Positions 22,336 through 36,838 of a stretch of DNA of 41,507 bases are shown piece after piece (position 1 is the first letter of the stretch; each line of letters begins with the position of its first letter). Made by a program: the position numbers and the translations under genes. Origin of the DNA: a virus; IMG/VR virus record IMGVR_UViG_3300025889_018428, positions 1 to 41,507 of that record; one strand, written 5' to 3'. The notes beneath the pieces were generated by a model. It saw only the letters and a list, made by a program, of their open reading frames with translations, searched no databases and was not told the origin of the DNA.

Positions 22336-22336
22336 A

Positions 22337-23090: not shown

Positions 23091-23102
23091 GCGTCTATTC
23101 TT

Positions 23103-23174: not shown

Positions 23175-23198
23175 TTGCTTCCTTAATTTTGAAATACT

Positions 23199-23337: not shown

Positions 23338-23506
23338 TGAGTGCCTTAAGTATATCGATCCACTGCTCATCTGTGATCTTGCGACCATTATAATGTAGAG
23401 GCGCAATGCTTTCAGTCTCGTCTTCGCCCTCTCTACCTCTGCCTTCATTTCCATCTGCATTTAACTCTGTCTGTGCACGTTGCCATGCTCTATAATCTTT
23501 GCTCAT
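23315..23506 (-). CDS. Small hydrophilic protein, unknown
   Basis: A 63-residue protein with a Gln/Arg-rich start (MSKDYRAWQRAQTELN), a Gly/Glu/Arg linker and the C-terminal piece ITDEQWIDILKALNG. The ATG at 23506 overlaps the stop of the upstream gene (ATGA). No domain is recognised. A competing frame at 23224-23460 is rejected except for its last 37 codons, which form the separate membrane-protein gene. Confidence 0.5.
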   Translation of the reverse strand: MSKDYRAWQRAQTELNADGNEGRGREGEDETESIAPLHYNGRKITDEQWIDILKALNGDPGTG

Positions 23507-24201: not shown

Positions 24202-24391
24202 TAAAACCTCCTATACTAAGTACCCAATTTTCTGCTGCATTTTCTGCATATAGCTCACTTTTAGCATGACACTGTACACTTGCGGCTAATTCTCCGTTTT
24301 GGTACATGTCTACCCAAAAGTCTCCATCATTATAATACACTATTGCTTTACGATCATAATGGAAATACTCTGATAAAGGGGTCTTATCCAT
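24194..24391 (-). CDS. Small protein downstream of thyX, unknown
   Basis: A 65-residue protein starting at ATG 24391, eight bases inside the end of thyX, and ending eight bases inside the next gene. It has Tyr- and Asp-rich beta segments (FHYDRKAIVYYNDGDFWVDMY) and an Ala/Glu-rich helix. No family is recognised. The coupling on both sides supports it as a real gene. Confidence 0.5.
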   Translation of the reverse strand: MDKTPLSEYFHYDRKAIVYYNDGDFWVDMYQNGELAASVQCHAKSELYAENAAENWVLSIGGFSG

Positions 24392-25061
24392 TTAAAGACT
24401 CCACTGCATTTACTACATCAGGAAAATGAACACTAAGAATATCCCAACACTTGTCTGCAACTTCAATGTGTTCTGCTTGGGTACCATGTCCTCGTCGTAA
24501 CTCACAATAGTGAATCCACGATCTAAGTGTTCCACTCATATAGAGTGTGGTTTCTGTCAGACCTTCGGGCAATAGTGCCCTTGCCTGTTCTTTTGCGATA
24601 CCGGTATTCAATGCCATCTCATAATGATCCTTTGCGACACGTGCAACCTCTGCTTGCAACTCGTTAAAAACTTCTTGAGCTTTGGCTTGCCTAATAGGAT
24701 CTTCATCTACTGAGCTTAATTGCCTATTGGTCGGATGTTGTTTTCTAGCTTGTCTTTTAACCGAAAAATTTTCAGCTTCAGCATACCGTTGAGAAAATTC
24801 TTGAAACGAAAAAGATCGGTGACGAATAATCTGTCGTGAAATATCACGAGTTGTTTTAATCTCCATCGTTACAGATACCATTTCAAAAGGAGACCAGTGC
24901 CCTTCTTTAATGAGGTATTTTAACAACTTAGAAGCTGTTTTAGTATTGTTTTGATTTGTTGGATTACTAACTCTTGCTGCATATGCAATTAATTCATTTG
25001 CTGTATGACACCCTGTTGTTGCGCTGGGCATGGTCATACCCACAAGGCTTACTTCTGCCAT
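24384..25061 (-). CDS. thyX: Flavin-dependent thymidylate synthase
   Basis: The 225-residue enzyme makes dTMP from dUMP with FAD and methylene-tetrahydrofolate. The diagnostic ThyX motif RHRSFSFQEFSQRY is intact, the substrate-binding segment ALLPEGLTETTLYMSG and LRRGHGTQAEHIEVA follow, and length matches the family. Two ATG codons occur in tandem; the second (25061) has GGAGG with a better 6-base spacing. It is the last-but-several gene of an operon of small coupled genes and complements NrdA/B and the MazG-like enzymes in dNTP supply. Confidence 0.95.
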   Translation of the reverse strand: MAEVSLVGMTMPSATTGCHTANELIAYAARVSNPTNQNNTKTASKLLKYLIKEGHWSPFEMVSVTMEIKTTRDISRQIIRHRSFSFQEFSQRYAEAENFSVKRQARKQHPTNRQLSSVDEDPIRQAKAQEVFNELQAEVARVAKDHYEMALNTGIAKEQARALLPEGLTETTLYMSGTLRSWIHYCELRRGHGTQAEHIEVADKCWDILSVHFPDVVNAVESLNG

Positions 25062-25086
25062 CATCTGCCTCCTACAATAAATTCCA

Positions 25087-25218
25087 TTATCTATTATTCT
25101 CTCTTACTTTTCTAATTAATAAAATAAACAGCTTTCTTAATCTTTCATCTGAAAGTGTGAATACACTTACTTGTCTTTGAATAACTTGATTTAGTAGCAT
25201 TTCTTCTTCATTCATCAT
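25087..25218 (-). CDS. 43-residue protein upstream of thyX
   Basis: ATG at 25218 (or 25215) with GGAG four bases upstream overlaps the stop of the previous membrane peptide (ATGA), and the TAA lies 23 bases from thyX. The product is acidic at the start (MMNEEEMLLNQVIQRQ) and basic and helical at the end (ERLRKLFILLIRKVRENN). Unknown function; the charge pattern suggests a protein- or nucleic-acid-binding helix. Confidence 0.5.
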   Translation of the reverse strand: MMNEEEMLLNQVIQRQVSVFTLSDERLRKLFILLIRKVRENNR

Positions 25219-25316
25219 ATTACTCCGTCAAGAATTACTTTTAGTGCTTTTATTACTAAAAAGACAATTATCCACCATACTATGATTACTTTAAAATACC
25301 AGAATAAAGTTTTCAT
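25215..25316 (-). CDS. 33-residue membrane peptide
   Basis: ATG at 25316 overlaps the stop of the upstream gene (ATGA) and the TGA overlaps the next ATG (ATGATG). The peptide starts MKTLFWYFKVIIVWWIIVFL, one transmembrane helix followed by a short basic/hydrophobic tail. Its -35-like TTGACG near 25228 has no fitting -10, so it is probably read from the promoter at 25901. Function unknown. Confidence 0.5.
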   Translation of the reverse strand: MKTLFWYFKVIIVWWIIVFLVIKALKVILDGVI

Positions 25317-25894
25317 CTACTTATTCTTTTTTCGTAATCTGCAATTTCATCGTCCCACCACCACGGTTTGCCACGGACTTTCCATGTGGCACCCTTACCA
25401 ATAGCGGCTTTGTCTTTCATGTAAAACATTCGATAAGACTCTACTGCGTCGTCGCTCTTGAGTTCTTCTGGCATGGCTTGGGCAAATGGGGTAAGTCCCG
25501 TTGCTGGTAAATGTACCATGTCTGGCAAGCAACGGATAACTTCTTCGAAGGATTTGTGATTGGCACCACCTCTGTAGATGTGCTCTTGGTTGAGAGCGTG
25601 GGCATAGCAGAAGAGCCACTCGTAGTTTTCGAGAGACTCTCTGGCCCAGATAGTACAAGGATGGTTGTACATAGTAGGAAGATAAGGAAAATCCCTAACT
25701 GGATTCTTCTTAGCTTCCGCAAGTACAGCCCATTCCTCACTTGTAAGTTTTCTTGGTACATATCCTAAGTATTTATCCACCCAATGATTTGTGCAAAGCA
25801 TTTGCGCAGCTTCGAGCTGCATTTTACCCGAGTGTGGGTCTATGTGGTACTGTGCACATAAGTCAATATTATGGTCGAGAACAAATATATTCAT
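25313..25894 (-). CDS. Conserved phage protein with Cys/His-rich N-terminus, unknown
   Basis: A 193-residue protein that starts MNIFVLDHNIDLCAQYHID and continues with HSGKMQLEAAQMLCTNHW; this C..H.D.H..KM.LE..QML pattern recurs, as I recall, in many phage proteins of unknown function and may bind metal or nucleic acid. The C-terminus has a Trp-rich WWWDDEI segment. The ATG lies exactly seven bases from the -10 box, so the mRNA may be leaderless. It is the first gene of the thyX operon. Confidence 0.6.
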   Translation of the reverse strand: MNIFVLDHNIDLCAQYHIDPHSGKMQLEAAQMLCTNHWVDKYLGYVPRKLTSEEWAVLAEAKKNPVRDFPYLPTMYNHPCTIWARESLENYEWLFCYAHALNQEHIYRGGANHKSFEEVIRCLPDMVHLPATGLTPFAQAMPEELKSDDAVESYRMFYMKDKAAIGKGATWKVRGKPWWWDDEIADYEKRISR

Positions 25895-25900
25895 GACGCT

Positions 25901-25929
25901 ATTATACTAAATTTAGCAATATTTGTCAA
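25901..25929 (-). promoter_or_regulatory. Sigma70-type promoter for the thyX operon, possibly leaderless
   Basis: Minus-strand TTGACA (25924-25929) and TATAAT (25901-25906), spacer 17 bp. The predicted +1 (25894) coincides with the A of the ATG of the first gene. Confidence 0.88.
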
Positions 25930-25936
25930 GAAATAT

Positions 25937-26185
25937 TTATGAATAATCGGGGCGATCCATCTTTGCTAGACGTTTTTGCACGGCATCTTCAATTTTGCCC
26001 TGGTCAATATTATATGCTTTTGCCAGCACAGCAATCATCGCCTTGACATCGCCCATTTCGTCGATTAGATTATTCAGATACTTGGGATCTTCAACCCCAT
26101 GTCTCATGACTTTGGAGCAAGCGCGAATAAGCTCTCCGCACTCCTCCATTGTGATTACGAGCTTATTAATTTTAGTTAGATCCAT
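25937..26185 (-). CDS. MazG-like nucleotide pyrophosphohydrolase
   Basis: An 82-residue all-alpha NTP pyrophosphohydrolase. The magnesium-binding pattern is complete: Glu14, Glu15 and Glu18 in MEECGEL, then Glu43 and Asp46 in DEMGDVKAMI. It is half the length of cellular MazG and equals the single-domain phage forms, which hydrolyse dNTPs or alarmones; its substrate cannot be told from sequence. The ATG overlaps the peroxiredoxin stop (TAATG), and the next promoter follows its stop. Confidence 0.82.
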   Translation of the reverse strand: MDLTKINKLVITMEECGELIRACSKVMRHGVEDPKYLNNLIDEMGDVKAMIAVLAKAYNIDQGKIEDAVQKRLAKMDRPDYS

Positions 26186-26763
26186 TAGAGAGTATCCAAT
26201 ATAAAAGCAGGAATTGTGTATTCATATGGATCTTCCTTACAATTACTTTCTTTACCTTTTTCTACAAAGAAAGATTCAATCAGACCATTGTTGACAACCA
26301 TTGCATAACGCCAAGAACGGATTCCGAAGCCCAGATTTTCTTTTTGTACATCCATATTCATACCTTGTGTAAACTCTGCATTCCCATCGCAGATCATTTT
26401 TACATCTTGAATATTCTGATCAATTGCCCACTTGTTCATGACAAAAGCATCATTCACAGAAATACAATAGATTTCATCAATTCCTCGATTTTTGAAAGTG
26501 GGATATAGCTCTTCAAACCCAGGAAGCTGATAGGTTGAGCAGGTTGGCGTAAAAGCGCCTGGCAGGGAGAATACAACTACTCTTTTACCTGCAAAGTAGT
26601 CATAAGTAGTTTTCTGCTCCCATCTATAGGGATTTGGACCATCAATAGTTTCATCTCGTACTCTCGTATGAAATATTACTGAGGGCACTATAATAGGAAC
26701 AGCTCTCCAATAGCTATTCTCTGCGTACTGTTCATGCTCACTTGGGTGACAATAAATTTTCAT
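26185..26763 (-). CDS. Peroxiredoxin (AhpC/Prx5-type)
   Basis: A 192-residue thiol peroxidase. The catalytic motif PGAFTPTCSTYQLPGFE with peroxidatic Cys75 is preceded by the GKRVVVFSL strand and followed by IYCISVNDAFVMNKW, as in Prx5-like redoxins. It reduces peroxides with electrons from thioredoxin or glutaredoxin. It begins with ATGA overlapping the stop of a 43-codon gene and is coupled to the MazG-like gene. A phage copy could protect the Fe- and radical-dependent enzymes of this phage (NrdB, 2OG oxygenases) during infection. Confidence 0.85.
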   Translation of the reverse strand: MKIYCHPSEHEQYAENSYWRAVPIIVPSVIFHTRVRDETIDGPNPYRWEQKTTYDYFAGKRVVVFSLPGAFTPTCSTYQLPGFEELYPTFKNRGIDEIYCISVNDAFVMNKWAIDQNIQDVKMICDGNAEFTQGMNMDVQKENLGFGIRSWRYAMVVNNGLIESFFVEKGKESNCKEDPYEYTIPAFILDTL

Positions 26764-26891
26764 AACTTTTTATTCCTATACCAATTAATATAATCCGGCC
26801 AAGCAAAAAAATCTTGCCGAAACCAACACCAGAACTGCCCATCATAGGGGCTTTCTAGCTTTACATTTAGATCTAACTCTGTTTGTGTCAT
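26760..26891 (-). CDS. 43-residue protein upstream of peroxiredoxin
   Basis: The ATG at 26891 overlaps the stop of the upstream 59-residue gene (ATGA) and the TGA overlaps the peroxiredoxin ATG. The product is aromatic-rich with DGQFWCWFRQDFFAWPDYINW. Coupling on both ends and this distinct composition support the gene; function unknown. Confidence 0.5.
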   Translation of the reverse strand: MTQTELDLNVKLESPYDGQFWCWFRQDFFAWPDYINWYRNKKL

Positions 26892-27067
26892 ACGTCGTAA
26901 ACTACCTCTTCTGTTTCTGTCTCTATAATATATACAGGTAAATAGCCTTGATCGGCTTTTTTGTCTGCAAAACGCTTAGCTTGTTCTAAATCCCCCATAA
27001 AATATTCAAATTTCATAGGATTATTAGAGATTTCGTGATATACTATGGCGTATTTTTTAGTGGGCAT
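26888..27067 (-). CDS. 59-residue protein, unknown
   Basis: ATG at 27067, 25 bases inside the previous gene, opens a 59-codon frame that ends with the ATGA overlap to the next. The sequence has a helix with EQAKRFADKKADQGYLP and a beta end (VYIIETETEEVVYDV), like a small alpha/beta protein. No family recognised. Confidence 0.5.
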   Translation of the reverse strand: MPTKKYAIVYHEISNNPMKFEYFMGDLEQAKRFADKKADQGYLPVYIIETETEEVVYDV

Positions 27068-27261
27068 CCGTCTATACTCAATATGGTTTCTTTTATTATA
27101 TCCTCATAGCACCCTTTACTTTTCAGCACTACTATTCTGTCAGACTTGGAGTTATTCAATGTAGTAGGAACTTCTCCCTCTACTGTTAAAACTTCTCCTG
27201 TTTTCCAATGTTTAAATGTAATTTTATGTCTTTTTCCAGGCTGTATACTCCAATTACTCAT
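27043..27261 (-). CDS. Small protein downstream of the spanins, unknown
   Basis: The frame is open to 27297, but the ATG at 27261 overlaps the o-spanin stop by 8 bp and is the likely start, giving 72 residues. The N-terminus MSNWSIQPGKRHKITFKHW is basic and the rest is beta-rich with two Cys. Function unknown. Confidence 0.5.
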   Translation of the reverse strand: MSNWSIQPGKRHKITFKHWKTGEVLTVEGEVPTTLNNSKSDRIVVLKSKGCYEDIIKETILSIDGCPLKNTP

Positions 27262-27676
27262 TATTCTCAAGCCAGTCTTCAGCTGTAGTACCTTCACTCT
27301 CTGTAGTAGCTTCGCGATAGTACAAGATTAATTCCTTCTGTTGGCGCACGTACCGGCGCACTTCTTGAAAGTTTTCAGCCATCTTCTCATACCCGTCTGG
27401 AGTTAGTGCAAACACTACAAACTGACCATCAAGCATCTTCTCGATAATCTTCACTTGCTCGTCAAGATTCTCTTCCGTAATGACAAAAAAATTGATGTCT
27501 AAGAGATCAATTTCCTGCGGCAGAGGAGGTTGGTAGATCCGAAGGGGTACTTTCTCCGTTACTGTTATTATTTTCGGTTCCGGAGGTATCGGAGCTTCCG
27601 GAAACTTCGGGAGCCACTGGCAACCCTGAAGTAGCAGGCTCGTCGTCATCAGCATCCATAAGTTCTTTTGTGTCAT
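27254..27676 (-). CDS. Outer-membrane spanin-like lipoprotein (Rz1-like)
   Basis: A 140-residue protein with a lipoprotein signal (MTTSLLLQGC lipobox, Cys19 lipidated) and a proline-rich stretch after it (PEAPIPPEPK, PPLPQE), both typical of Rz1-type o-spanins. It starts inside the i-spanin gene in another frame (170-bp overlap), the classic Rz/Rz1 arrangement, and would join the i-spanin across the periplasm to fuse the membranes at lysis. It is longer than usual: about 90 extra residues form a helical domain with IIEKMLDGQFVVFALTPDGYEKM, absent from textbook Rz1 proteins. Confidence 0.78.
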   Translation of the reverse strand: MTQKNLWMLMTTSLLLQGCQWLPKFPEAPIPPEPKIITVTEKVPLRIYQPPLPQEIDLLDINFFVITEENLDEQVKIIEKMLDGQFVVFALTPDGYEKMAENFQEVRRYVRQQKELILYYREATTESEGTTAEDWLENNE

Positions 27677-28052
27677 TTTCTAGTGCCCTAAATACTTTTG
27701 CAGTTCCGCCGTTAATTCTTTTTTCAATTAGACCAGGCTTTGCTCGTGCAAGACGAGTAAGATTATGGTCTTTGAATACTTTAAGGTAGTTCTGCTTTTC
27801 TTTGTTCAGCTCATTATTTCTTGCTGTGAGGTTGGACATTGCTGCTTCTGCTTTTTTTGCATTCTCTTCTGCATCTTTGAGTGCTTTTTGAGAAGTCTTG
27901 ACTGCAATTTCCATCTGAACTTGGTTTTCTTTGAGGGTTCTGTTGTTTGCTTCAAGTTGAACTACTGTACTTTCTAATTTTGAAACGGTAGTTGTGTGAT
28001 AAGCATAACCACCGCCCGCTGCCATTAAAAAGGCTAAAATCAGCCAAGGCAT
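27507..28052 (-). CDS. Inner-membrane spanin-like protein (Rz-like)
   Basis: A 181-residue type II membrane protein: a hydrophobic N-terminus (WLILAFLMAAGGGYAY), a long coiled coil from about 25 to 95 (KLESTVVQLEANNRTLKENQ and following), and a Ser/Thr/Pro/Gly-rich end. That is the layout of Rz i-spanins. It follows the lysozyme gene with a one-base overlap (TAATG) and contains the start of the o-spanin gene. The two act in the last step of lysis of a Gram-negative host. The C-terminal low-complexity tail probably reflects the overlapping o-spanin frame. Confidence 0.82.
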   Translation of the reverse strand: MPWLILAFLMAAGGGYAYHTTTVSKLESTVVQLEANNRTLKENQVQMEIAVKTSQKALKDAEENAKKAEAAMSNLTARNNELNKEKQNYLKVFKDHNLTRLARAKPGLIEKRINGGTAKVFRALENDTKELMDADDDEPATSGLPVAPEVSGSSDTSGTENNNSNGESTPSDLPTSSAAGN

Positions 28053-28498
28053 TATACAGCCTCTAATCTACTCATAAGCCTTTCTGCACGATTTGTTACT
28101 TGCTTATGCCAACGAGAATCTCGCCCCTCTACTGCAGCAGTTGCCCAATCACCGGCTTCAAGTGCAGCGTTAAATTTTTTAAATTGAGATAAGCGAGGTC
28201 TGCCCATATTAAACATCATATTGACCACAACTTGTTGAACTTCCTCGGGGAATCCTTCAAACGTTTCCTCGCCGTAAAGTACATGACACTCTGAGATAGA
28301 AGTGTCAAGATCTTTCTCAAAACATTCCCATACACGCTCTTCTGATACAGGCGTACCGAATTCAGCGCCCCATTCTTTGTCTTCTTGTACTATAAGATGA
28401 CCAACACCAAACGTGTGAAGCCCAAGATGGTCTGCGTAAACTTCGTACACTACTCCCTCATCTACTTTAAGGGTCTCGAATACTTCTTTTCTATTCAT
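28052..28498 (-). CDS. T4-type lysozyme (endolysin, GH24)
   Basis: A 148-residue muramidase that cleaves the peptidoglycan glycan strand. The catalytic triad is Glu14, Asp23 and Thr29 in DEGVVYEVYADHLGLHTFGVGH, with the same spacing as Glu11, Asp20 and Thr26 of T4 lysozyme; the C-terminal lobe has the NMMFNMGRPRLSQF and DSRWHKQVTNRAERL helices. No signal peptide is seen, so it needs a holin to reach the wall. AAGGA lies seven bases before the ATG, and an 11-bp hairpin lies just upstream. Confidence 0.93.
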   Translation of the reverse strand: MNRKEVFETLKVDEGVVYEVYADHLGLHTFGVGHLIVQEDKEWGAEFGTPVSEERVWECFEKDLDTSISECHVLYGEETFEGFPEEVQQVVVNMMFNMGRPRLSQFKKFNAALEAGDWATAAVEGRDSRWHKQVTNRAERLMSRLEAV

Positions 28499-28514
28499 TT
28501 GAAATTCCTTTATA

Positions 28515-28540
28515 TATATAGGGGCCTAAGCCCCTATATA
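28515..28540. repeat. 11-bp inverted repeat before the lysozyme gene
   Basis: TATATAGGGGC (28515-28525) and GCCCCTATATA (28530-28540) form a perfect 11-bp stem with a 4-base loop. Neither side has a run of T longer than four, so it is a weak terminator at best. It stands about ten bases before the lysozyme ribosome binding site and could delay or modulate lysis gene expression. Confidence 0.65.
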
Positions 28541-28544
28541 GCTT

Positions 28545-28655
28545 TTACATGATAGGCAATAAAAATATAGCTGTAACTATTGCTGACCCAATTAACATTA
28601 CAAAATCAAAATTATTTCCTAAAAAGTTTGTCGTTTTCCTAATAGCTCTACTCAA
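28545..28655 (-). CDS. Possible 36-residue membrane protein (holin candidate)
   Basis: A frame starting with TTG at 28655, overlapping the hsp20 stop by 8 bp, encodes a basic N-terminus (RAIRKTTNF) and one hydrophobic segment (FVMLIGSAIVTAIFLLPIM). No good ribosome binding site is visible. Its place between hsp20 and lysozyme makes a small holin or pinholin possible, but with only one transmembrane helix and no other evidence this is tentative. Confidence 0.35.
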   Translation of the reverse strand: MSRAIRKTTNFLGNNFDFVMLIGSAIVTAIFLLPIM

Positions 28656-29061
28656 TGGTGATAGACTTAGGCTTATCTTCTTCGGGTACGTGTTCCGCAA
28701 TCCAAATTTTGAGCAAGCCATCGGTCAGAGTAGCATTCTCAACTTTAAGATTTTCGCCTACATGGAAGGTTTTAGAAAAACCTTTACCACTAATTCCTTT
28801 GTGAAGATACTTAGAAACGTCAGTGCCGTTTAAAGCCTCTCCTTTTACGATCAAACTTTGTTTTTCTACAGTGACGGACACTGTATTCTTTGACCTGCCG
28901 GGTACAGCTACTTCTACTCTATACCCTCCGTCTTCTTTAACAATATTGTACCTCGGATACTGCTGGGAAAGTTCTCCAGGCCCCCACAAAAGTCTATCTG
29001 TGTCTAGCCTATCAAATCCCAACATTACTTTGGAAAGATCATTAAATGCAATTTTAGTCAT
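28648..29061 (-). CDS. Small heat-shock protein (Hsp20/alpha-crystallin)
   Basis: A 137-residue ATP-independent chaperone with the alpha-crystallin domain: YRVEVAVPGRSKNTVSVTVEKQ, the loop KGISGKGFSKTFHV, the conserved ATLTDGLLKIWI and a C-terminal KSITIE anchor. Such genes occur in many marine phages, where they may stabilise structural proteins during assembly. AGGAGA lies six bases before the ATG. The C-terminal I-x-I motif (ITI) used for oligomerisation is present. Confidence 0.9.
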   Translation of the reverse strand: MTKIAFNDLSKVMLGFDRLDTDRLLWGPGELSQQYPRYNIVKEDGGYRVEVAVPGRSKNTVSVTVEKQSLIVKGEALNGTDVSKYLHKGISGKGFSKTFHVGENLKVENATLTDGLLKIWIAEHVPEEDKPKSITIE

Positions 29062-29164
29062 GTGTTTTCTCCTGCGCCCTCTCGGTACGCTCTATGCACT
29101 TCTTTCGATAGTGCTGTATGTAGGTTCTGTGTCTTAGTTCACTCTTATGTTGACTCCAGAGCAC
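29054..29164 (-). CDS. 36-residue basic protein upstream of hsp20
   Basis: A GTG at 29164 with AGGA four bases upstream opens a frame overlapping the hsp20 start by 8 bp. The product is strongly basic (SQHKSELRHRTYIQHYRKK), His- and Arg-rich, like small nucleic-acid-binding phage proteins. The overlap style matches its neighbours. Function unknown. Confidence 0.4.
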   Translation of the reverse strand: MLWSQHKSELRHRTYIQHYRKKCIERTERAQEKTHD

Positions 29165-29170
29165 TCGGTC

Positions 29171-29731
29171 CTACGGTCTAACCCAACTGGGTCTTTGTTT
29201 AATTGTCATCCACGTCGGATAACGGCTCCAGGCATTAGTCTCTACTATGCCCGTTAAATATATTTCGTCAATTTGATGCTTAGCACAAAAAGTATTTACT
29301 GCCTCATAAACTAAAGGCCATTTTCTTTTATCGTAATCATCTCCTGCAAACATGCCCCCTACTTTGAGTTTAGGCCACCAGTCATAAAGAGTCTGTCCGT
29401 TTTCCTCTCCAGTATGAGCATACCCATCTACATATATAAAATCAAAACAATTATCAGGAAATAGATCTAGTGCTTCATCGAAACGCATCTTTAGTAAAGA
29501 ATATCCAGATAAAACACCAACAGCTGTTAGTGCTTTTTTGTATTGTTGTAGATTATGCCCTCTATCAGCATACATATCAACCCCAATATATCTTAAAAAC
29601 TTACCACTACGAATCGCCCTGCTAGAATACAGTCCTTCTGCAACGCCTAGCTCTATACCTATATTAGAGTTTCCAGGTAGTTTTTGTAATATATCGTGTC
29701 GGTGAAAATTCTTTAATAAAGTTACTTTCAT
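29171..29731 (-). CDS. Class I SAM methyltransferase-like protein
   Basis: A 186-residue Rossmann protein: motif I in IGIELGVAEGLYSSRAI, acidic loop in YIGVDMYADR, the core FDFIYVDGYAHTGEENGQ and GGMFAGDDYD. The DxxH/DGxH style is that of the Methyltransf_24-like family acting on small or glycan substrates. It differs from the methyltransferase at 5745-6413. The ATG follows the tmRNA gene by about ten bases and has no visible ribosome binding site, so translation may depend on processing of the tmRNA transcript. Confidence 0.7.
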   Translation of the reverse strand: MKVTLLKNFHRHDILQKLPGNSNIGIELGVAEGLYSSRAIRSGKFLRYIGVDMYADRGHNLQQYKKALTAVGVLSGYSLLKMRFDEALDLFPDNCFDFIYVDGYAHTGEENGQTLYDWWPKLKVGGMFAGDDYDKRKWPLVYEAVNTFCAKHQIDEIYLTGIVETNAWSRYPTWMTIKQRPSWVRP

Positions 29732-29740
29732 AAAATAAAT

Positions 29741-30026
29741 ATGGGCCGGAACTTGGCTAACAAGGCGTCCGGCAAACCCCGTCTAGCTTTAAGCAGCTAG
29801 AGAGTAAATGTCATCATTGGCATTTATATTTATTAAGTTTTTACGTCTACTCTGACGAATCCTAAAAAATACTTTCAATAGCCCGTCGAAACCTGTCAGC
29901 CCCCTCATAAACACACCCTGCGTAGTCTTCTACGGTAATCCGTTGGGAACCTTACTGCGCCTTACGGATGTGCTTATGGTGGAGCTGGGCGTATTGAAAC
30001 GCCGTCCGATCCATCTAGTTATATTT
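29741..30026 (-). ncRNA. ssrA: Circularly permuted (two-piece) tmRNA
   Basis: tmRNA rescues stalled ribosomes and tags the unfinished protein for proteolysis. In permuted order along the minus strand, the acceptor piece comes first: CGGACG, a T-arm GGCGT/ACGCC around TTCAAT, and CCAGCTCCACCA ending at 29977. A 73-base spacer to be removed follows (two hairpins, one CGTAG/CTACG at 29921-29934). The coding piece then begins at 29903 with GGGGCTGACAGGTTTCGACG. GGGGCTG pairs with CAGCTCC and includes the G3-U70 pair for alanyl-tRNA synthetase. The tag frame, 29821 to 29789, reads ANDDIYSLAA then TAA, and this stop lies in the loop of a 7-bp stem TCTAGCT/AGCTAGA. A UATTTTT/AAAAATA pairing joins the pieces. 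A GCCGGA/TCCGGC hairpin (29745-29773) closes the 3' side. Ends are approximate. Confidence 0.93.
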
Positions 30027-30443
30027 TTATAACGGGATTTGTAGTTCTTCAAAAACTTTCTTTTTTATAAGTCTAGGAGAGTGTACTTCTGCGTGACAAT
30101 TTTGACAAAGTATGGCACATTTTTCAAGTTCATCCTTAAGTGTCTTTACAGTAGCGTGCCTTCTCTTTGAAATTTCAAAAGACTTTGTAGAAGGCTCTAT
30201 GTGATGAAATGCTATTGCTCCCAAGTTCTCATCATATCCACAAAGTTCACATTCCCAATGTCTATTTAATTCTGTTATCGCCTGAGTAAGTCTAGTATAA
30301 TATTGGTGGAACTCCTGTTTACTAGAGCAGGTCTTACAGAAAGGTTTATGTTTTTGTTTTCCATTAGGCTGAGTCCCGTTCTTCTGAAACTCAGATATTG
30401 GTTGCTCTATATTACAAACATTACAAGTTTTGCTTTCACTCAT
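30027..30443 (-). CDS. HNH endonuclease with N-terminal zinc finger
   Basis: A 138-residue nuclease with two parts: an N-terminal Cys4 module (CNVCNIEQPI and CKTCSSKQ) and a C-terminal HNH domain (CELCGYDENLGAIAFHHIEPS, then CAILCQNCHAEVH). The catalytic HH pair, the central Glu/Lys region and the CxxC zinc knuckles are intact. The start at 30443 is supported by the ATGA overlap with the Bfd-like gene; the frame is open to 30509. The stop lies at the edge of the tmRNA acceptor piece. It may be a homing-type endonuclease linked to the tmRNA locus or a nuclease acting on host DNA. Confidence 0.82.
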   Translation of the reverse strand: MSESKTCNVCNIEQPISEFQKNGTQPNGKQKHKPFCKTCSSKQEFHQYYTRLTQAITELNRHWECELCGYDENLGAIAFHHIEPSTKSFEISKRRHATVKTLKDELEKCAILCQNCHAEVHSPRLIKKKVFEELQIPL

Positions 30444-30598
30444 GTTTCTTTTCTGTCTTCTGTTAGATAAGTTATCTTCTCTACTTTTACCGACCCTTCT
30501 TCTGAGCATTTACCGCACTTAGATCCCAAAAGATGGTAATAGTAGTCATTCTCTTCTAGCATTTTCTCTGTAATTGCATTACAAATACAAACGTACAC
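30440..30598 (-). CDS. Bfd-like [2Fe-2S] ferredoxin
   Basis: A 52-residue protein beginning MYVCICNAITEKMLEE and containing SKCGKCSEEGS. The Cys-x-Cys near the N-terminus and Cys-x2-Cys about 25 residues later are the four cluster ligands of bacterioferritin-associated ferredoxins, which reduce the bacterioferritin core to release iron. The GTG start overlaps the previous TAG by one base and follows GAGGA; the stop overlaps the HNH gene (ATGA). It could mobilise host iron for the phage Fe enzymes (NrdB and the oxygenases). The fold assignment is by motif only. Confidence 0.75.
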   Translation of the reverse strand: MYVCICNAITEKMLEENDYYYHLLGSKCGKCSEEGSVKVEKITYLTEDRKET

Positions 30599-30750
30599 TA
30601 TTCTTCCTCAGAATCTAATTCTAATACTCCTTGGTCGATTAGATGATCTATAACACTTTCCATCCCTTCTCTTCTTCCTAGAACAAAAGAAGAAGAAGCC
30701 ACACCTATCATACAGAAAACAAAAATAGCTATTAACTCAGGACTAAGCAT
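30598..30750 (-). CDS. 50-residue membrane protein, first gene of the tmRNA operon
   Basis: ATG at 30750 with GGAG six bases upstream. The N-terminal MLSPELIAIFVFCMIGVASS is a membrane segment, followed by a short basic linker and an acidic helix (MESVIDHLIDQGVLELD). I recall similar TM-plus-acidic-helix proteins from marine phages, function unknown. It is the first gene after the promoter at 30796-30824. Confidence 0.6.
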   Translation of the reverse strand: MLSPELIAIFVFCMIGVASSSFVLGRREGMESVIDHLIDQGVLELDSEEE

Positions 30751-30795
30751 AAAAATCTCCGTTTAAATTTTTGATTTTAAATTTAATCATTGCAT

Positions 30796-30824
30796 ATTAT
30801 ACTTCATCCGCACCACTTTGTCAA
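30796..30824 (-). promoter_or_regulatory. Sigma70-type promoter for the Bfd/HNH/tmRNA operon
   Basis: Minus-strand TTGACA (30819-30824) and TATAAT (30796-30801), spacer 17 bp. No other promoter is visible before the tmRNA, so tmRNA is probably cut from this transcript. Confidence 0.86.
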
Positions 30825-30846
30825 GAAATTTTTTTGAGTAACACAT

Positions 30847-30880
30847 AAAAAAACCTCGGTGAAAATATATTTCACCGAGG
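30847..30880 (-). terminator. Strong intrinsic terminator
   Basis: CCTCGGTGAAA (30854-30864) and TTTCACCGAGG (30870-30880) form a perfect 11-bp stem with loop ATATA. On the minus strand it is followed by seven T (30847-30853). It ends the transcript that carries the small membrane gene at 30998-31150 and lies just upstream of the next promoter. Confidence 0.92.
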
Positions 30881-30882
30881 CT

Positions 30883-30966
30883 TTAGTAGAGCTTTTGTCC
30901 TAGGTACAAGCTCCGAGAACCCAAGCCTAGATCGTTTTTGAGAAAACGGGCAAGAAACTCGCGCAT
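30883..30966 (-). CDS. Possible 27-residue peptide before the terminator
   Basis: An ATG at 30966 opens a 27-codon frame ending at TAA (30883-30885), directly before the terminator. The peptide starts MREFLARFLKNDLGLGSRS and looks like an amphipathic basic helix. No clear ribosome binding site is seen, so this is a low-confidence gene. Confidence 0.3.
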   Translation of the reverse strand: MREFLARFLKNDLGLGSRSLYLGQKLY

Positions 30967-30997
30967 TTAAAGTCTACCGTTGACTTAAAACTACTTC

Positions 30998-31150
30998 TTA
31001 CTTCTCGTTAATGTAGTAGTTTCTACACTCTTGAACGCTTTCTGCAATGCCTTGTTCGACTTCAGCCTTGCATTTTTCGTTCAGAGCCTTGTTGCTGCTC
31101 GGTATGATTAACAGAGCTACAACGATCAATGCAATGGTTACACCATCCAT
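30998..31150 (-). CDS. 50-residue membrane protein of a stand-alone unit
   Basis: ATG at 31150 with AGGAG six bases upstream. It has an N-terminal hydrophobic segment (VTIALIVVALLIIPSS) and an acidic/polar domain with two cysteines (KCKAEVEQGIAESVQECRNYY), perhaps outside the cytoplasm and disulfide-bonded. The promoter at 31645 and terminator at 30847 make it the main gene of its own transcript with a leader of about 490 bases. Function unknown; an early host-takeover or superinfection factor would fit. Confidence 0.6.
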   Translation of the reverse strand: MDGVTIALIVVALLIIPSSNKALNEKCKAEVEQGIAESVQECRNYYINEK

Positions 31151-31527
31151 GATCTTCTCCTTTTATATAGAGTGAAACGATTACCTACCTACTTTCGTTT
31201 CGACGTGCTACTCACTAGATGGCTAAGATAGCACCCCTGGCGAGAACCCGTGGTTATGGTTATGAATAGGCTCCTCGCTGTAACTAACCCCATAACATTA
31301 TTAGTAATTTTCGTGGTTAGTTGTTTCTTTCTATTTCCTTTTAGCGTCAGGCTTTGAAAGATTTCGGACGGGTTATGTTTCTTAACGGAGTAATAACCAA
31401 CTACGGCTATGCACAATAAGCCTGCATACTGGCCTTCCTCTTTTAGCCTAAGAGGAAAAATTTGGCAGAAATTGGAGCTTCGGTAGGGCTGGTACTTTCA
31501 CCGAAATCTTTACTGCCTTATCAGCAC
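31151..31527 (-). other. Gene-poor, hairpin-rich leader region
   Basis: About 375 bases between the 30998-31150 gene and the tandem repeats without a convincing gene. One 75-codon frame (31189-31416) begins with TTG and lacks a ribosome binding site. The stretch holds several inverted repeats: AACTAACC/GGTTAGTT (31282-31289, 31315-31322), TTCCTCTT/AAGAGGAA (31435-31442, 31450-31457) and TTCGGT/ACCGAA (31479-31484, 31500-31505). It would be transcribed as a long structured leader or contain a small RNA. Confidence 0.45.
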
Positions 31528-31612
31528 CTGTATCAAGTACAAAACTGTATCAAGTACAAAACTGTATCAAGTACAAAACTGTATCAAGTACAAAACTGTA
31601 TCAAGTACAGAA
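31528..31612. repeat. Five tandem 17-bp repeats
   Basis: The unit CTGTATCAAGTACAAAA occurs five times head to tail; the fifth copy has one A-to-G change, and a four-base partial copy follows. Each unit contains the short palindrome TGTA-TCAAG-TACA. The array lies just downstream of the minus-strand promoter at 31645 and near the plus-strand promoter at 31714, so it could be an operator array, a replication iteron set or a repeat RNA. Confidence 0.95.
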
Positions 31613-31644
31613 CTGTCCCTGGCTTCTCTCAATTTCTGAATACT

Positions 31645-31673
31645 ATTATATAGAAATAACCAGAAAAAGTCAA
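31645..31673 (-). promoter_or_regulatory. Sigma70-type promoter reading into the tandem repeats
   Basis: Minus-strand TTGACT (31668-31673) and TATAAT (31645-31650), spacer 17 bp, preceded by AAAATAGTTC. Transcription starts near 31638, about 25 bases before the repeat array. Confidence 0.86.
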
Positions 31674-31713
31674 GAACTATTTTTTTGAATGTTACCCCTT
31701 GCAAAAATAATAC

Positions 31714-31742
31714 TTGACATGAACGCACTTTTATCATATAAT
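31714..31742 (+). promoter_or_regulatory. Sigma70-type promoter of the plus-strand operon, possibly leaderless
   Basis: TTGACA (31714-31719) and TATAAT (31737-31742) with a 17-bp spacer. It is divergent from the promoter at 31645-31673, with about 40 bp between their -35 boxes. The predicted +1 (31749) is the A of the ATG of the first gene. Confidence 0.86.
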
Positions 31743-31748
31743 ATACGG

Positions 31749-31925
31749 ATGAAAAATTATAGAAAAAAGCCATGGAGCTATAAAGAACGCATGCTTTTAA
31801 GGGACCACTACTATTTTGTAGGAGGAGAAGAGATGGAAAAAATTCTTCCAGGTAGAACTCATAATTCTATAATTAAACAAGTGGCATATTTAAAAGCGAG
31901 AGGATGGTGGTTTAAAAAACCGTGA
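31749..31925 (+). CDS. Small Myb/SANT-like DNA-binding protein
   Basis: A 58-residue protein with a Myb/HTH layout: KKPWSYKERMLLRDHYYFVG, then EEMEKILPGRTHNSIIKQVAYLKARGWW. The PGRT turn before the recognition helix is typical of Myb-like repeats. If transcription starts seven bases after the -10, the ATG is at the 5' end of the mRNA (leaderless). A strong internal site (GGAGGAGAAGAG before ATG at 31833) would give only the recognition half. It is placed to act as a regulator of the divergent promoters beside it. Confidence 0.65.
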   Translation: MKNYRKKPWSYKERMLLRDHYYFVGGEEMEKILPGRTHNSIIKQVAYLKARGWWFKKP

Positions 31926-32596
31926 AAGAATACGACCATAGACTAAGTAAAACCGTAAAAGCTATATTTCCAAGCATATCAGGGTGGCTGACAGGATCTT
32001 TATCTGCTCAATTTTACAACTTCTTAGTTACAGAAATAGTTGATAAACAAGGACCAAACGGTAAAAAACATGGAGAATATTTAGCAGGAGTCTTAAATGA
32101 GGAACTAGCTCTAGATAATCTTTTAGTTACATCCCAGATAGAAAACTTCTGTTTATTATGTGCAGAACAGTATGCGGAAACCTGGGGATGGCGTATCGTT
32201 GAAGAATTATGGAAAAGAATCGCCACTGACCGCGAATACAAAAGTTTTGAGTTAAGTTTATCCAGCAGTTGGGTTAACTGGATGAAAAAGTATGAATACA
32301 ACCCTCTACATAATCATAGTGGGTTGTTTTCTTTTGTAATTTGGCTTAAAGTTCCGTACACTATGGAAGACGAGTATACTTATTTCCCTTATAAAGATAA
32401 AGAGAAACTAAAAAACGGGGCTTTTTCTATAGTTAACTCTTGTAATGTAATTAATGAAGATTTAATATTTCCCGAAGAGGGTAAGTTTGCATTTTTTCCT
32501 GCAGAGTTAATACATCAAGTTTATCCATTTTTTAGTTCGGATGACTATAGAGTCAGTATTTCAGGAAATGTAAAAGTAGACTTTAAGGAGGAATAA
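31922..32596 (+). CDS. Putative 2OG-Fe(II) oxygenase-like protein
   Basis: A 224-residue protein with the segment NPLHNHSGLFSFVIWLKVP, later KFAFFPAELIHQVYPFF and YRVSISGNV. This matches phage oxygenases of the TIGR02466-like type with His (HNH), distal His (IHQVYPF) and Arg (YRVS) positions of the double-stranded beta-helix; the usual aspartate of H-x-D is replaced here, so activity is uncertain. It starts with GTG overlapping the previous stop (GTGA). Substrate unknown. Confidence 0.7.
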   Translation: MKEYDHRLSKTVKAIFPSISGWLTGSLSAQFYNFLVTEIVDKQGPNGKKHGEYLAGVLNEELALDNLLVTSQIENFCLLCAEQYAETWGWRIVEELWKRIATDREYKSFELSLSSSWVNWMKKYEYNPLHNHSGLFSFVIWLKVPYTMEDEYTYFPYKDKEKLKNGAFSIVNSCNVINEDLIFPEEGKFAFFPAELIHQVYPFFSSDDYRVSISGNVKVDFKEE

Positions 32597-32766
32597 TGGC
32601 AAAAATTAAGGAAGTGGTAATGTTTGTAGAGGGGTTATTCTACTCTGATTTTAGCAGGGAAGAAATAGCTAAGATGGGAAGTCGAGAGTTTAATATATCA
32701 GAAAATTATATTAAAAAAGTGTATGATGACTTCGTGTGGGAAAATAAATATAAAGTATGGACATAA
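32596..32766 (+). CDS. 56-residue protein upstream of rpsU, unknown
   Basis: ATG at 32596 overlaps the previous TAA (TAATG) and follows AAGGAGGAAT, a very strong ribosome binding site. The sequence is charged and helical with MGSREFNISENYIKKVYDDF. It overlaps the bS21 gene by 10 bp. No family recognised. Confidence 0.6.
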   Translation: MAKIKEVVMFVEGLFYSDFSREEIAKMGSREFNISENYIKKVYDDFVWENKYKVWT

Positions 32767-32942
32767 AAGTAAAAAACGGAAATGTAGAGAAAGCTCTTAG
32801 AATTTTAAAAAGAAGATCTTTGGAAAAACTTTTTGAAGTACGTGAGAGACAATACTACTTAAAGCCTTCAGAGGCAAGACAGAAGAGAAAAAAAGCAGCA
32901 AAATTAAGAGAGCTTAGGAGGGTTCGTGCTGAGAAACAATAA
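32757..32942 (+). CDS. rpsU: Ribosomal protein bS21
   Basis: A 61-residue homologue of small-subunit protein S21. It has the N-terminal strand DIKVKNGNVEKALRILKRR, the conserved EVRERQYYLKPSEARQKRKK and a basic C-terminal helix (AAKLRELRRVRAEK), matching cellular bS21 from end to end. S21 is the last protein to join the 30S subunit near the anti-Shine-Dalgarno region; phages of SAR11 and others are known to carry it. Here it may bias host ribosomes toward phage mRNA. It overlaps the 32596 gene and ends inside the dehydratase start. Confidence 0.92.
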   Translation: MDIKVKNGNVEKALRILKRRSLEKLFEVRERQYYLKPSEARQKRKKAAKLRELRRVRAEKQ

Positions 32943-33957
32943 ACGTATTTTAATTACTGGTGGAGCAGGATTCATAGCACACCATGTAGTAGAGAAAATA
33001 CTAAGAGAAACTGATTGGGATATCGTAACATTAGATAGATTAGACTTCAGTGGAAATCTAAATAGACTTTCCGAGGTAGTTAATCAATTTAATCAAGAAG
33101 ATAGAAAAAGAGTAAAAATAGTACATCACGATTTAAAAGCTGCTCTTAATGACCAAATTTCTTCCGCTATTGGAGAGATAGACTTTATTGCTCACATGGC
33201 GGCAGGATCTCATGTAGACAGGTCTATTGATTATCCTATGGAATTTGTACTGGATAATGTGGTAGGAACTGTAAATCTTCTCGACTATGCTAGAACAGTG
33301 CCAAATCTTGAGCTATTTGTGTACTTTTCTACAGATGAAGTGTTTGGTCCCGCCCCTGGCAATGTTAAATATAAGGAAACAGATAGATATAACTCCACAA
33401 ATCCCTACTCTGCTAGTAAAGCAGGAGGAGAGGAGTTCGTAGTTGCATATCAAAATACTTATGGGCTGCCTGCAATTATTACACATACTATGAATGTCTT
33501 TGGAGAACGTCAACATCCGGAGAAATATATTCCAATGTGTATAAAGCGTATCAGGGATGAAGAGACTGTTACTGTTCACTCTAATCCTGAAAAAACTAAA
33601 GCAGGCTCTAGACATTATATACATGCAGAGGATGTAGCAGATGCTTTACTTTTCTTATTGAGAACTGATCTATCCATAGCCCCTAGACTTTATAATGAGC
33701 CAAAGTGTCAAAAGTTTAATATTGTAGGGTCTGAGGAGTTGGATAATTTAGAGGTAGCTCAAATTATAGCAGAATTTCAAAATAAAGAATGCAAATATAG
33801 AATGGTTGATTTTCATTCTCAACGTCCAGGCCATGATCTTCGATATGCTCTCGATGGGAGTAAAATGGCAGAGATGGGCTGGAAGCCTAGACCGATTCGA
33901 GATAGATTGAATCAAGTAATTAAATGGAGTTTGGAGAACTCAAGATGGCTAATGTAG
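32926..33957 (+). CDS. NAD-dependent sugar-nucleotide epimerase/dehydratase (RmlB-like)
   Basis: A 343-residue extended short-chain dehydrogenase. The NAD site is ITGGAGFIAHHVV, followed by the HMAAGSHVDRSI loop, the catalytic STDEVFG and Tyr/Lys pair in YSASKAGGEE, and the RHYIHAEDVADAL segment. This is the layout of dTDP-glucose 4,6-dehydratase and related UDP/GDP-sugar enzymes. The GTG start follows AGGAGG by four bases. It probably makes an activated sugar for the glycosyltransferases encoded at 35487-39265. Confidence 0.88.
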   Translation: MLRNNKRILITGGAGFIAHHVVEKILRETDWDIVTLDRLDFSGNLNRLSEVVNQFNQEDRKRVKIVHHDLKAALNDQISSAIGEIDFIAHMAAGSHVDRSIDYPMEFVLDNVVGTVNLLDYARTVPNLELFVYFSTDEVFGPAPGNVKYKETDRYNSTNPYSASKAGGEEFVVAYQNTYGLPAIITHTMNVFGERQHPEKYIPMCIKRIRDEETVTVHSNPEKTKAGSRHYIHAEDVADALLFLLRTDLSIAPRLYNEPKCQKFNIVGSEELDNLEVAQIIAEFQNKECKYRMVDFHSQRPGHDLRYALDGSKMAEMGWKPRPIRDRLNQVIKWSLENSRWLM

Positions 33958-34349
33958 TATGGGAAGGTACTAACTTTGAGTTAGTAGGTGATTTTATGGA
34001 GGCTTTTGGTCAAGAGGTTCATTTAGAACCTCACTGGCCCGATTTCTCTACTCGAGAACTTAGAGTAGACTTAATTGAGGAAGAGCTAGAGGAATTAAAA
34101 GTAGCTATTGCTAATGAAGATCCTGTGGAGGTAGCAGATGCGCTCACTGATTTACTATATGTTGTGTACGGAGCAGGCCACGCCTTTGGCCTTGATCTTG
34201 ATACTTGTTTCAATGAAGTTCATGCAAGTAATATGAGTAAACTAGGCGAAGACGGAAAGCCTGTCTATAGAGAAGATGGCAAAGTACTAAAAGGGCCTAA
34301 CTTTTTTAAACCAAATCTGAGAAGAGCCTTATGGATGGAAACACTCTAA
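33945..34349 (+). CDS. MazG/HisE-like nucleotide pyrophosphohydrolase
   Basis: A 134-residue all-alpha pyrophosphohydrolase with the metal-binding helices VDLIEEELEELK and VEVADALTDLLYVVYG. The tail KLGEDGKPVYREDGKVLKGP is typical of phosphoribosyl-ATP pyrophosphohydrolase-like phage proteins. ATG at 33945 has GGAG eight bases upstream; the frame is open from 33924. This is one of three enzymes in the window with a pyrophosphohydrolase-like fold, which would trim the nucleotide pool. The exact substrate is unknown. Confidence 0.8.
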   Translation: MANVVWEGTNFELVGDFMEAFGQEVHLEPHWPDFSTRELRVDLIEEELEELKVAIANEDPVEVADALTDLLYVVYGAGHAFGLDLDTCFNEVHASNMSKLGEDGKPVYREDGKVLKGPNFFKPNLRRALWMETL

Positions 34350-35497
34350 AAGCGTATGTAGTTGGCTATGGTTCTATAGATGCTTTAGGAAATAACCCTT
34401 ATGAAAGTTTTCAGAATTCTTTAAATAATACTGACTACTCTTCTATAATTGAACCACTTAAAGAATACCCTATTAATACGGGGTATCAAGTTGAAGACTC
34501 TAGATTATTATACCCTAAGGGATTTCGACCCAAAGGTATGTCAAGAGCACAGAAATTTGTAATGCATGCGACAAATCTTGCCTTACTACACGCAAATATT
34601 CGCCACTCTTCTAATGTGGCTGTAATAATATCTTCTACTTTATCTGAAGGCGAGATGTCTTCAAAAAATATTCCAAAATTTTTATCAAACTCTAAAGTCT
34701 CTCCGCGAGAGAATGTTAATACTATTACTGATATGTGTACATATCATGTAGCTGAGCACTGGAAATTTCAGGGAATGTCTACTTCTGTAGCCGCCGCTTG
34801 CGCTACTGGATTAGTTAGTATTGATTATGCTATGCGGATATTGCACAGATATGACTATGTAATAGTCGGAGGTGCTGACGCTGGCTGCTATGAAACAGCG
34901 ATTAAGGGATTCCATCAAATTGGTGCAATTTCAAACAACAATAGTCCATTTGATAATAACAGAACTGGTTTTGTTATGGGAGAAGGTGCTGGAGTACTAA
35001 TTCTTCAAAATGCATATAATGTAGAAAAGTATGGCAGCAAAGTACACGCAATTTTACATGAACCTGGGCACGCATCCGAAGGCTTAAGTATTACTAGCCC
35101 TGCCGAAGACGGTAGAGGGGCAATACAAGCAATGCGACAAGCTTTAAGATATGCAGAAATTGTCCCAAATACTGTTTGTGCTCATGGTACTTCAACACCT
35201 ATAGGAGATGTCATAGAGTATACAGCAATTCAAAAAGTACTACCTAATACACCTATTTGGGCTCCTAAGAGTAAAATAGGGCATACAGTTGGAGCGGCAG
35301 GAATTTTAGAAACAATACATTGTATTGAAGCAGGAAAACAAAATATAGTACCTCATATACATAACCTAAATAAGTGTGATTTTGATACTAGCAATAGTTT
35401 ATGCCGAGAAAACACTCCCTGCGAAAAAGTTTTTATGAACAATTCTTTTGGCTTTGGAGGTAAAAATATGGCTCAGGTCTTAGAGGTTATATCCTAA
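34331..35497 (+). CDS. Beta-ketoacyl-ACP synthase (FabF-like)
   Basis: A 388-residue thiolase-fold condensing enzyme. The active site is complete: Cys157 in VAAACATGLVS, His285 in CAHGTSTPIGD, Lys313 and His318 in PKSKIGHTVGAAG, and the closing motif NSFGFGGKNMAQVL. These are the residues of KAS I/II enzymes (FabB/FabF) that elongate acyl-ACP by malonyl-ACP condensation. The N-terminal region is divergent, so a specialised acyl or polyketide product is possible. ATG at 34331 overlaps the pyrophosphohydrolase gene. The gene ends the plus-strand operon and overlaps the opposing glycosyltransferase by 11 bp. A phage copy of this enzyme is unusual. Confidence 0.92.
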   Translation: MDGNTLKAYVVGYGSIDALGNNPYESFQNSLNNTDYSSIIEPLKEYPINTGYQVEDSRLLYPKGFRPKGMSRAQKFVMHATNLALLHANIRHSSNVAVIISSTLSEGEMSSKNIPKFLSNSKVSPRENVNTITDMCTYHVAEHWKFQGMSTSVAAACATGLVSIDYAMRILHRYDYVIVGGADAGCYETAIKGFHQIGAISNNNSPFDNNRTGFVMGEGAGVLILQNAYNVEKYGSKVHAILHEPGHASEGLSITSPAEDGRGAIQAMRQALRYAEIVPNTVCAHGTSTPIGDVIEYTAIQKVLPNTPIWAPKSKIGHTVGAAGILETIHCIEAGKQNIVPHIHNLNKCDFDTSNSLCRENTPCEKVFMNNSFGFGGKNMAQVLEVIS

Positions 35498-36833
35498 TAG
35501 GACCTGGGAACCTCTCTCCATTGGGATCTTTTAAAGCAATCATACAAGCTCTAACAGCAAGATTTCCATTCTCATCAGGAACATTCCAGACCCCATAACT
35601 TTGAAATCTTATATCTTCTGTATAAGATTCTTTAGCCTTAGTTATATCGGTGTAGTGATAAAAAGAGTCATAATTCCAAAAACTTCTATGTATAGGATTA
35701 GAAAAAGCAGCCTTGCCTTCTGTGGAAGGTACTTGTAAAACAAGCCAGCCCCCATGAACTAAAACTCTCCAGCACTCTCTCATTATAAAAACAGGATCAT
35801 CTAGTAGATGTAGGATATTCCAAGCTCTTATAATCCCTACTGAATTATCCGCCACCTGAATTCCATTATTTAAATCGTCTCTGACATCTCCCCAGTGTAG
35901 ATCATAATTTCTTAAGCCGAAAGTCGAAATTTCTCCTCCTCCTAGTTCTATCCTATCTCCTAAGACAGCGCCCTCTATAACGGCTATTTCTGAACAGCGA
36001 TCTCTCCAGAGCTCTTTAGTTTTTACTTGTATGCTCTCGTTTCTCTGAATAGAAGTATTTGCTGTCCCCGTAAGTCTATAAAAATATAAAGGTTCTGGTA
36101 TATGAACAAATTTAGTATGATGTATATAAAGACGCTGTATCCAATCAATATCATCTCCTGTACTTAATTCAGGGTCATAACTGTTTAAAGTAGTATTTAA
36201 AGACCTTTTCCAGCTTCTTACATGATCGGGAGCATACCAGACATACGAGAAAGCCTTAGCAGTAGGTTGCCAAGTATTATTCACCGTACCAACTTCACCA
36301 GAATGTGGCCAAACATAGCTATAGTCTGTCCAACCATGCTCTTTACTAAAGCCATGCCAAGGCCCATAATCTTCTTCAACAAAATACATACAGTTAGAGT
36401 AAACAAATCCTGCGTCAGGATCGTTCTCATATACTTCGTTTAATTTTTCTAAACAATCGTACCTAAGTTTATCATCATGATCTACCTCTACTATTATATC
36501 GCCTGTAGCTAGTGAAAAAGCGGCATTTTTTATATCTCCAATAGAATTCTCGGGTTGATGCTCCCGTATTTGGGTATGCCATTTAACTCTATCGTCTGAA
36601 ATTGATAACTGGGTTTTTAGTACTTCTGGGCTAACCTCGCCATTACAATATACTACCCACTCCCAGTTGGTATAGGTTTGATTAATAATACTATCCCATA
36701 ATTGCGCTAAATTATGTATATTTAAATAAGTATGTTCCGGTGTTACAATACTAAATTTTAAGCTAGTAGGAGCTTCCTCGACGGCTGCGTTAAGCTCTTC
36801 TGACAAAAACAAGGGTTTTAATTTTAGTTCCAT
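35487..36833 (-). CDS. Glycosyltransferase fused to a methyltransferase-like domain
   Basis: A 448-residue two-domain protein. Residues 25-260 form a family 2 glycosyltransferase: SIVTPEHTYLNI nucleotide site, DIIVEVDHDD metal-binding DxD, and TGDDIDWIQRL at the acceptor side. Residues 285-430 resemble a SAM methyltransferase: GGEISTFG, ADNSVGIIRAWNILHLLDD and MRECWRVLVHGGWLVLQVPS. The domain order suggests transfer of a sugar and its methylation in one protein. It lies five bases after the 808-residue gene and should work with the RmlB-like dehydratase. Confidence 0.82.
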   Translation of the reverse strand: MELKLKPLFLSEELNAAVEEAPTSLKFSIVTPEHTYLNIHNLAQLWDSIINQTYTNWEWVVYCNGEVSPEVLKTQLSISDDRVKWHTQIREHQPENSIGDIKNAAFSLATGDIIVEVDHDDKLRYDCLEKLNEVYENDPDAGFVYSNCMYFVEEDYGPWHGFSKEHGWTDYSYVWPHSGEVGTVNNTWQPTAKAFSYVWYAPDHVRSWKRSLNTTLNSYDPELSTGDDIDWIQRLYIHHTKFVHIPEPLYFYRLTGTANTSIQRNESIQVKTKELWRDRCSEIAVIEGAVLGDRIELGGGEISTFGLRNYDLHWGDVRDDLNNGIQVADNSVGIIRAWNILHLLDDPVFIMRECWRVLVHGGWLVLQVPSTEGKAAFSNPIHRSFWNYDSFYHYTDITKAKESYTEDIRFQSYGVWNVPDENGNLAVRACMIALKDPNGERFPGPIRI

Positions 36834-36838
36834 AAAAG

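Follow-up and report, generated by a model that had tools for sequence, protein, structure and literature searches.

A phage-encoded circularly permuted, two-piece tmRNA gene in a T5-like phage

The tmRNA genes of Bacillus phage G and mycobacteriophage Bxz1 are standard and unpermuted and yield one-piece molecules, unlike the gene considered here, which lies in an IMG/VR record of 41,507 bases (hereafter the window, meaning that whole stretch of DNA). Like the window gene, they represent ssrA carried by a phage (PMC4131195). In bacteria, permuted tmRNA has been described for Alphaproteobacteria, Betaproteobacteria, and Cyanobacteria (PMC9004378, PMC11915505). Two-piece tmRNA in phages is also of an already known kind: a study from 2022 found it in phage Melnitz, a phage of OM43 with an alphaproteobacterial-type tmRNA, and counted 133 unique phage tmRNA structures, of which 53 are two-piece, with marine or aquatic samples as the source of 50 of these (PMC9004378), and another study lists 79 phage tmRNA sequences (PMC11915505). 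Given the former count, the original prediction that permuted tmRNA is seldom described in phages is outdated. In the papers cited here, phage tmRNAs have been counted but hardly tested.

The window gene resembles those of Melnitz and other aquatic phages in being a complete permuted ssrA within a lytic phage genome; however, Melnitz is a T4-like myophage that combines its alphaproteobacterial-type tmRNA with a glutamine riboswitch (PMC9004378), whereas the window is T5-like and its tmRNA is beta-like, and no riboswitch in the window exceeded the Rfam cut-off. The betaproteobacterial permuted tmRNA (RF01850) shares the overall layout and the 3′ stem, but the window gene differs from it by a 6-nt T-loop, a 3-nt D-linker, and a 73-nt spacer, and it groups with phage copies instead of the sampled bacterial ones. 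Permuted genes are likewise carried by seven cultured phages, namely Pseudomonas SM1 and UF_RH6, Stenotrophomonas Menderavirus, Xanthomonas XacN1 and Rb1, Acinetobacter BUCT628, and Synechococcus BUCT-ZZ01, all of which except Rb1 match beta_tmRNA above the cut-off; in contrast to the window, they belong to other phage families and have the usual 7-nt T-loop where it could be parsed. What is added to this known kind is a sister phage that has the same flanking genes without the tmRNA, long tmRNA-bearing phage contigs without an SmpB gene, and the beta-like permuted form in cultured phages of Pseudomonas, Stenotrophomonas, Xanthomonas, and Acinetobacter. There is also evidence that the gene passes from phage to phage and does not correspond to the version that the host itself has.

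Architecture of the permuted gene

An intact circularly permuted (two-piece) tmRNA gene occupies the minus strand at approximately 30039-29745, as recognized by covariance models, ARAGORN, and direct reading (Table 1), which supports the original prediction of such a phage-encoded gene. Both searches proposed with that prediction returned hits. In the Rfam cmscan, RF04321 matched with 115.6 bits (E 5e-22, cut-off 47) and beta_tmRNA RF01850 with 101.8 bits (E 5e-30, cut-off 84), the latter being the best in its clan, where one other overlapping match above the cut-off scored lower; ARAGORN called a permuted tmRNA at 30068-29698 with the tag ANDDIYSLAA. The tRNA-like 3′ part precedes the 5′ part, the order by which permuted tmRNA is recognized, and the predicted layout was found as such: CGGACG, the T-arm, and CCAGCTCCACCA ending at 29977 are followed by the spacer and then by GGGGCTGACAGGTTTCGACG from 29903. 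The acceptor stem read from GGGGCTG and CAGCTCC forms all seven pairs between the two parts at the positions first given, G3-U70 included, with the CCA encoded. Similarly, the tag frame stands as proposed (29821-29789, stop UAA), with a C-terminus of the proteolysis type, and its stop falls in the loop of the P5-like hairpin CUAGCU/AGCUAG (29800-29783) according to ARAGORN and folding. Only the extent of the gene had to be amended: these elements are all inside the predicted interval of 29741-30026, but the gene reaches slightly beyond it, where the P2 strand AAUCC of the acceptor piece (30039-30035), the pairing partner of GGAUU in the coding piece, shares bases with the final codons of the upstream HNH reading frame (stop 30029-30027).

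Table 1. Positions of the tmRNA parts and neighbouring features in the window
Feature	Position	Strand	Content	Basis
HNH endonuclease ORF, directly upstream	30027..30509	-		phrog_2255, E 2e-32; L168 orthologue 62%
Acceptor (tRNA-like 3′) piece	29977..30039	-	P2 strand, T-arm (5-bp stem, 6-nt loop UUCAAU), CAGCTCC, encoded ACCA; 3′ end 29977	cmscan RF04321 alignment, ARAGORN, direct reading, parser; 5′ end approximate
Intervening sequence, 73 nt	29904..29976	-	Between encoded CCA and acceptor 5′ strand	
Coding (mRNA-like 5′) piece	29745..29903	-	GGGGCTG acceptor 5′ strand, D-like arm, P2, tag, stop hairpin, 3′ stem GCCGGA/UCCGGC	Direct reading, cmscan, folding; 3′ end approximate
Tag frame	29789..29821	-	ANDDIYSLAA and UAA; resume codon GCC	ARAGORN; covariance-model alignment stops at tag stop
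P5-like hairpin	29783..29800	-	CUAGCU-GCUUAA-AGCUAG, stop codon in loop	Folding; identical sequence in L209
Methyltransferase-like ORF, directly downstream	29171..29731	-		PF13578; L168 orthologue 74%, abutting HNH there
Candidate operon promoter	30796..30824	-	Perfect sigma-70 consensus TTGACA-17-TATAAT	Consensus match only
Terminator-like hairpin, just upstream of the promoter	30850..30884	-		Consensus match only

The folding of the parts agrees with this reading. A 68-nt stretch with the stop hairpin and the next stem gave a fold z of -2.95, with none of 200 shuffles as good, and the acceptor piece joined to the start of the coding piece folds together as expected (z = -2.28). The T-loop, UUCAAU, has 6 nt and the D-linker, ACA, has 3 nt, where 7 and 4 are usual; because both short forms recur in other phage tmRNAs, they are taken as true variants and not as errors, and this shortening by one base each relative to most tmRNAs could alter charging or SmpB binding. 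The exact short-T-loop pattern was matched 27 times in viruses, in 24 cases on a contig for which ARAGORN or Rfam calls a permuted tmRNA, and 18 times in bacteria, never in a permuted one. The 6-nt loop and the 3-nt linker occur together in 13 of 184 viral and 0 of 49 bacterial permuted tmRNAs sampled. The short T-loop by itself was considered as a phage-only trait and dropped, as a wider survey showed that, among 49 distinct bacterial permuted tmRNAs, 2 also have a 6-nt loop.

Conservation as RNA and proposed function

The tmRNA core of the window recurs unchanged in two related contigs, L123 and L104. In the nearest relative of the coding piece, L209, the tag reads ANDDVYSLAA from the alignment and the stop hairpin is identical, and three pairs of the tRNA-like domain differ from those of the window on both sides with pairing kept (C-G to G-C and U-A to C-G in the T-stem; C-G to G-C in the acceptor). 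Across viruses, N5 and N68, which sit in separate pieces and were both left free in the search pattern, pair in all 106 distinct viral permuted genes among the matches listed (GC 50, AU 40, CG 15, GU 1); even allowing for shared ancestry, this pairing argues strongly for selection as RNA. The tags are as expected of a working degradation tag, since 128 of the 133 distinct viral tags end in AA and 95 end in LAA.

The window gene is, in all likelihood, an intact permuted ssrA carried by a T5-like phage, the RNA of which would be processed and charged by the host and delivered by SmpB in order to tag and free stalled ribosomes. The tmRNA would be transcribed within its operon, with the perfect sigma-70 consensus at 30824-30796 as the probable promoter, and, by analogy with known two-piece tmRNAs, host tRNA-processing enzymes would cut out the 73-nt spacer. 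This would yield two pieces, an acceptor piece with CCA at its 3′ end and a coding piece that begins with GGGG, which the acceptor stem and P2 would keep associated. The host alanyl-tRNA synthetase could then charge the molecule through G3-U70, whereupon host SmpB would take it to stalled ribosomes, ANDDIYSLAA would be added, and the ribosome would be released. The phage may benefit in that ribosomes stay available even as infected cells are left with broken host messages. Neither the window nor 32 viral records, including approximately 20 tmRNA-bearing contigs of more than 75 kb, yielded an SmpB gene, so that the phage tmRNA would rely on the SmpB of the host.

The same finding would also suit a decoy that binds SmpB and dampens host trans-translation, in the manner of the mycobacteriophage DS6A tmRNA that consists of the tRNA-like domain only; a DS6A-like molecule is indeed an inhibitor of tmRNA (PMC4131195, PMC11915505), and the shortened T-loop and D-linker could be read in this way. 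Such a decoy is nevertheless improbable here, as it needs neither the tag frame nor the stop hairpin nor the LAA degron that the window gene keeps, and the AA ending is maintained in 128 of 133 viral genes. A different role, suggested in PMC9004378, is that the tag steers host or phage proteins to host proteases for the recycling of amino acids or the tuning of phage proteins, with rescue being secondary. The conservation of tag and degron across viral genes and a candidate promoter of the host sigma-70 type are in keeping with it, but the tag is of the ordinary bacterial type and indistinguishable from normal tagging, and this role is judged unlikely.

Phage context, gain or loss, and spread of the gene

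The window comes from a T5-like phage, as indicated by a D5-like regulator, a two-subunit NAD-dependent ligase, SbcC and SbcD, and a T5-type helicase and DNA polymerase, the last being close to the enzymes of T5-like Vibrio phages (45%); a primase, a ribonucleotide reductase, and a thymidylate synthase are also encoded. The 41,507-base record is taken as a fragment because T5-like phages exceed 100 kb, and no virion structural module was identified in it. The tmRNA region found no BLAST match among the isolates in INPHARED, and neither did an artificial consensus query. The assembly agrees with L170 at 100% over 11051-27404 and with L123 at 99.8% over 27818-38049, and for 27.4-27.8 kb its order finds support in the sister phage L168/L171. 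The spanin genes at 27257-27950 share 95-100% identity with their counterparts in L292, a different type of phage in which the adjacent genes have clearly diverged; this points to a recent exchange and to a spot at which assemblies break or misjoin.

The tmRNA lies in a tight same-strand operon in which the candidate promoter faces the HNH, tmRNA, and methyltransferase genes, and such a promoter would suit early transcription by the host RNA polymerase. A second perfect TTGACA-17-TATAAT promoter at 31714-31742 (+), on the strand opposite to 30824-30796 (-), leads into genes for a 2OG-Fe(II) oxygenase, a nucleotide-sugar epimerase, and a ketoacyl synthase. The sister phage L168/L171 is 73-79% identical to the window over most aligned blocks, with order conserved, and has no tmRNA between the HNH and methyltransferase genes, the HNH stop and the methyltransferase start overlapping there in GTGA. 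In the window, approximately 295 bases, just the tmRNA, separate the two genes, and P2 is formed in part by the final codons of HNH. Since the flanking genes abut without it, the tmRNA is a discrete accessory gene, and the comparison of the two phages shows its gain or loss at a clean site. Gain in the window would be no more likely than loss in L168, because a Bfd-like gene adjoins the tmRNA in several other phages and both the window and L168 have Bfd followed by HNH. Of the viral tmRNA loci, 13 have a gene for a small Bfd-like [2Fe-2S] protein, and in 9 of these (L104:841-1023, L214, L051, L085, L292, L293, L296, L299, and L300) it immediately precedes the permuted tmRNA; in the window, the Bfd-like reading frame is just upstream of HNH, which thus stands between it and the tmRNA.

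Different tmRNAs sit elsewhere in related contigs, and this patchy distribution, together with the absence from L168/L171 and a T-loop and D-linker that depart from the consensus, would fit a neutral passenger or decaying gene acquired from a bacterium, but this is very improbable in view of the compensatory pair changes relative to L209, a tag and a stop hairpin that are both intact, and the recurrence of the short T-loop with a compensated stem in several phages.

The original prediction also held that the phage copy should report the host lineage, a claim that is not supported, since cultured phages infecting gammaproteobacteria and Synechococcus elongatus have this beta-like permuted form as well. 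The gammaproteobacterial hosts of these phages have one-piece tmRNAs of their own. Permuted tmRNAs are carried by cultured phages of Pseudomonas aeruginosa, Stenotrophomonas maltophilia, Xanthomonas, Acinetobacter, and Synechococcus elongatus. Each of the five host groups is represented among those above the Rfam beta_tmRNA cut-off; Xanthomonas phage Rb1 and Stenotrophomonas phage BUCTxx99 match RF04321 only. The records of L442 and L443 (Pseudomonas phages SM1 and UF_RH6), L440 and L444 (Xanthomonas), L445 (Stenotrophomonas), L446 (Acinetobacter), and L441 (Synechococcus) lack a tmRNA annotation over the stretch concerned. Among 274 genomes from the class of a Serratia genome, one gave a strong permuted-tmRNA match and three gave marginal ones. 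Strong matches also occur in five bacterial genomes (L303 and L332-L335) from the order of one member of that class, where the spacers measure only 4-5 nt and the T-loops are alpha-like (GGCGGUA or GGCAGUA).

The nearest sequences to the window tmRNA are phage copies, in a comparison set that samples the beta lineage poorly. In a quick tree of 152 columns, which is indicative only given this sampling, the window tmRNA (as its identical copy L123) groups with the phage copy L033 at a support of 0.905; their clade (0.91) holds 141 metagenomic viral, 7 cultured-phage, and 4 bacterial sequences, and a separate clade is formed by 51 bacterial sequences. A tentative reading, which could readily prove wrong, is that the window gene belongs to a phage-borne two-piece tmRNA lineage that circulates independently of host lineage and works with the SmpB and processing enzymes of one-piece hosts; it would then be a portable gene for ribosome rescue that phages acquire and lose at individual sites. 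These results warn against predicting a host from a phage tmRNA. As phages of hosts outside the three permuted-tmRNA lineages carry the two-piece form, whether such a molecule is processed and used in a one-piece-tmRNA cell, and whether the phage needs it, become questions for the laboratory, where the cultured phages with unannotated permuted genes are usable models and the sister phage without tmRNA offers a natural with/without pair.

One contig, L104, has two different permuted tmRNAs, at 595-902 (-) with the tag ANDEVYDLAIAA, a spacer of approximately 13 nt, and the T-loop UGCAAGU, and at 6551-6918 (-) with the tag ANDDIYSLAA. It was rejected as an example of a phage with two permuted tmRNAs, being a mosaic in which chimera and recombinant are indistinguishable: it equals L292 up to approximately 4200 and the window thereafter, the join lying in a stretch of approximately 700 nt that is near-identical in both, and it may be an assembly chimera. 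A 91.8-kb relative carries one tmRNA.
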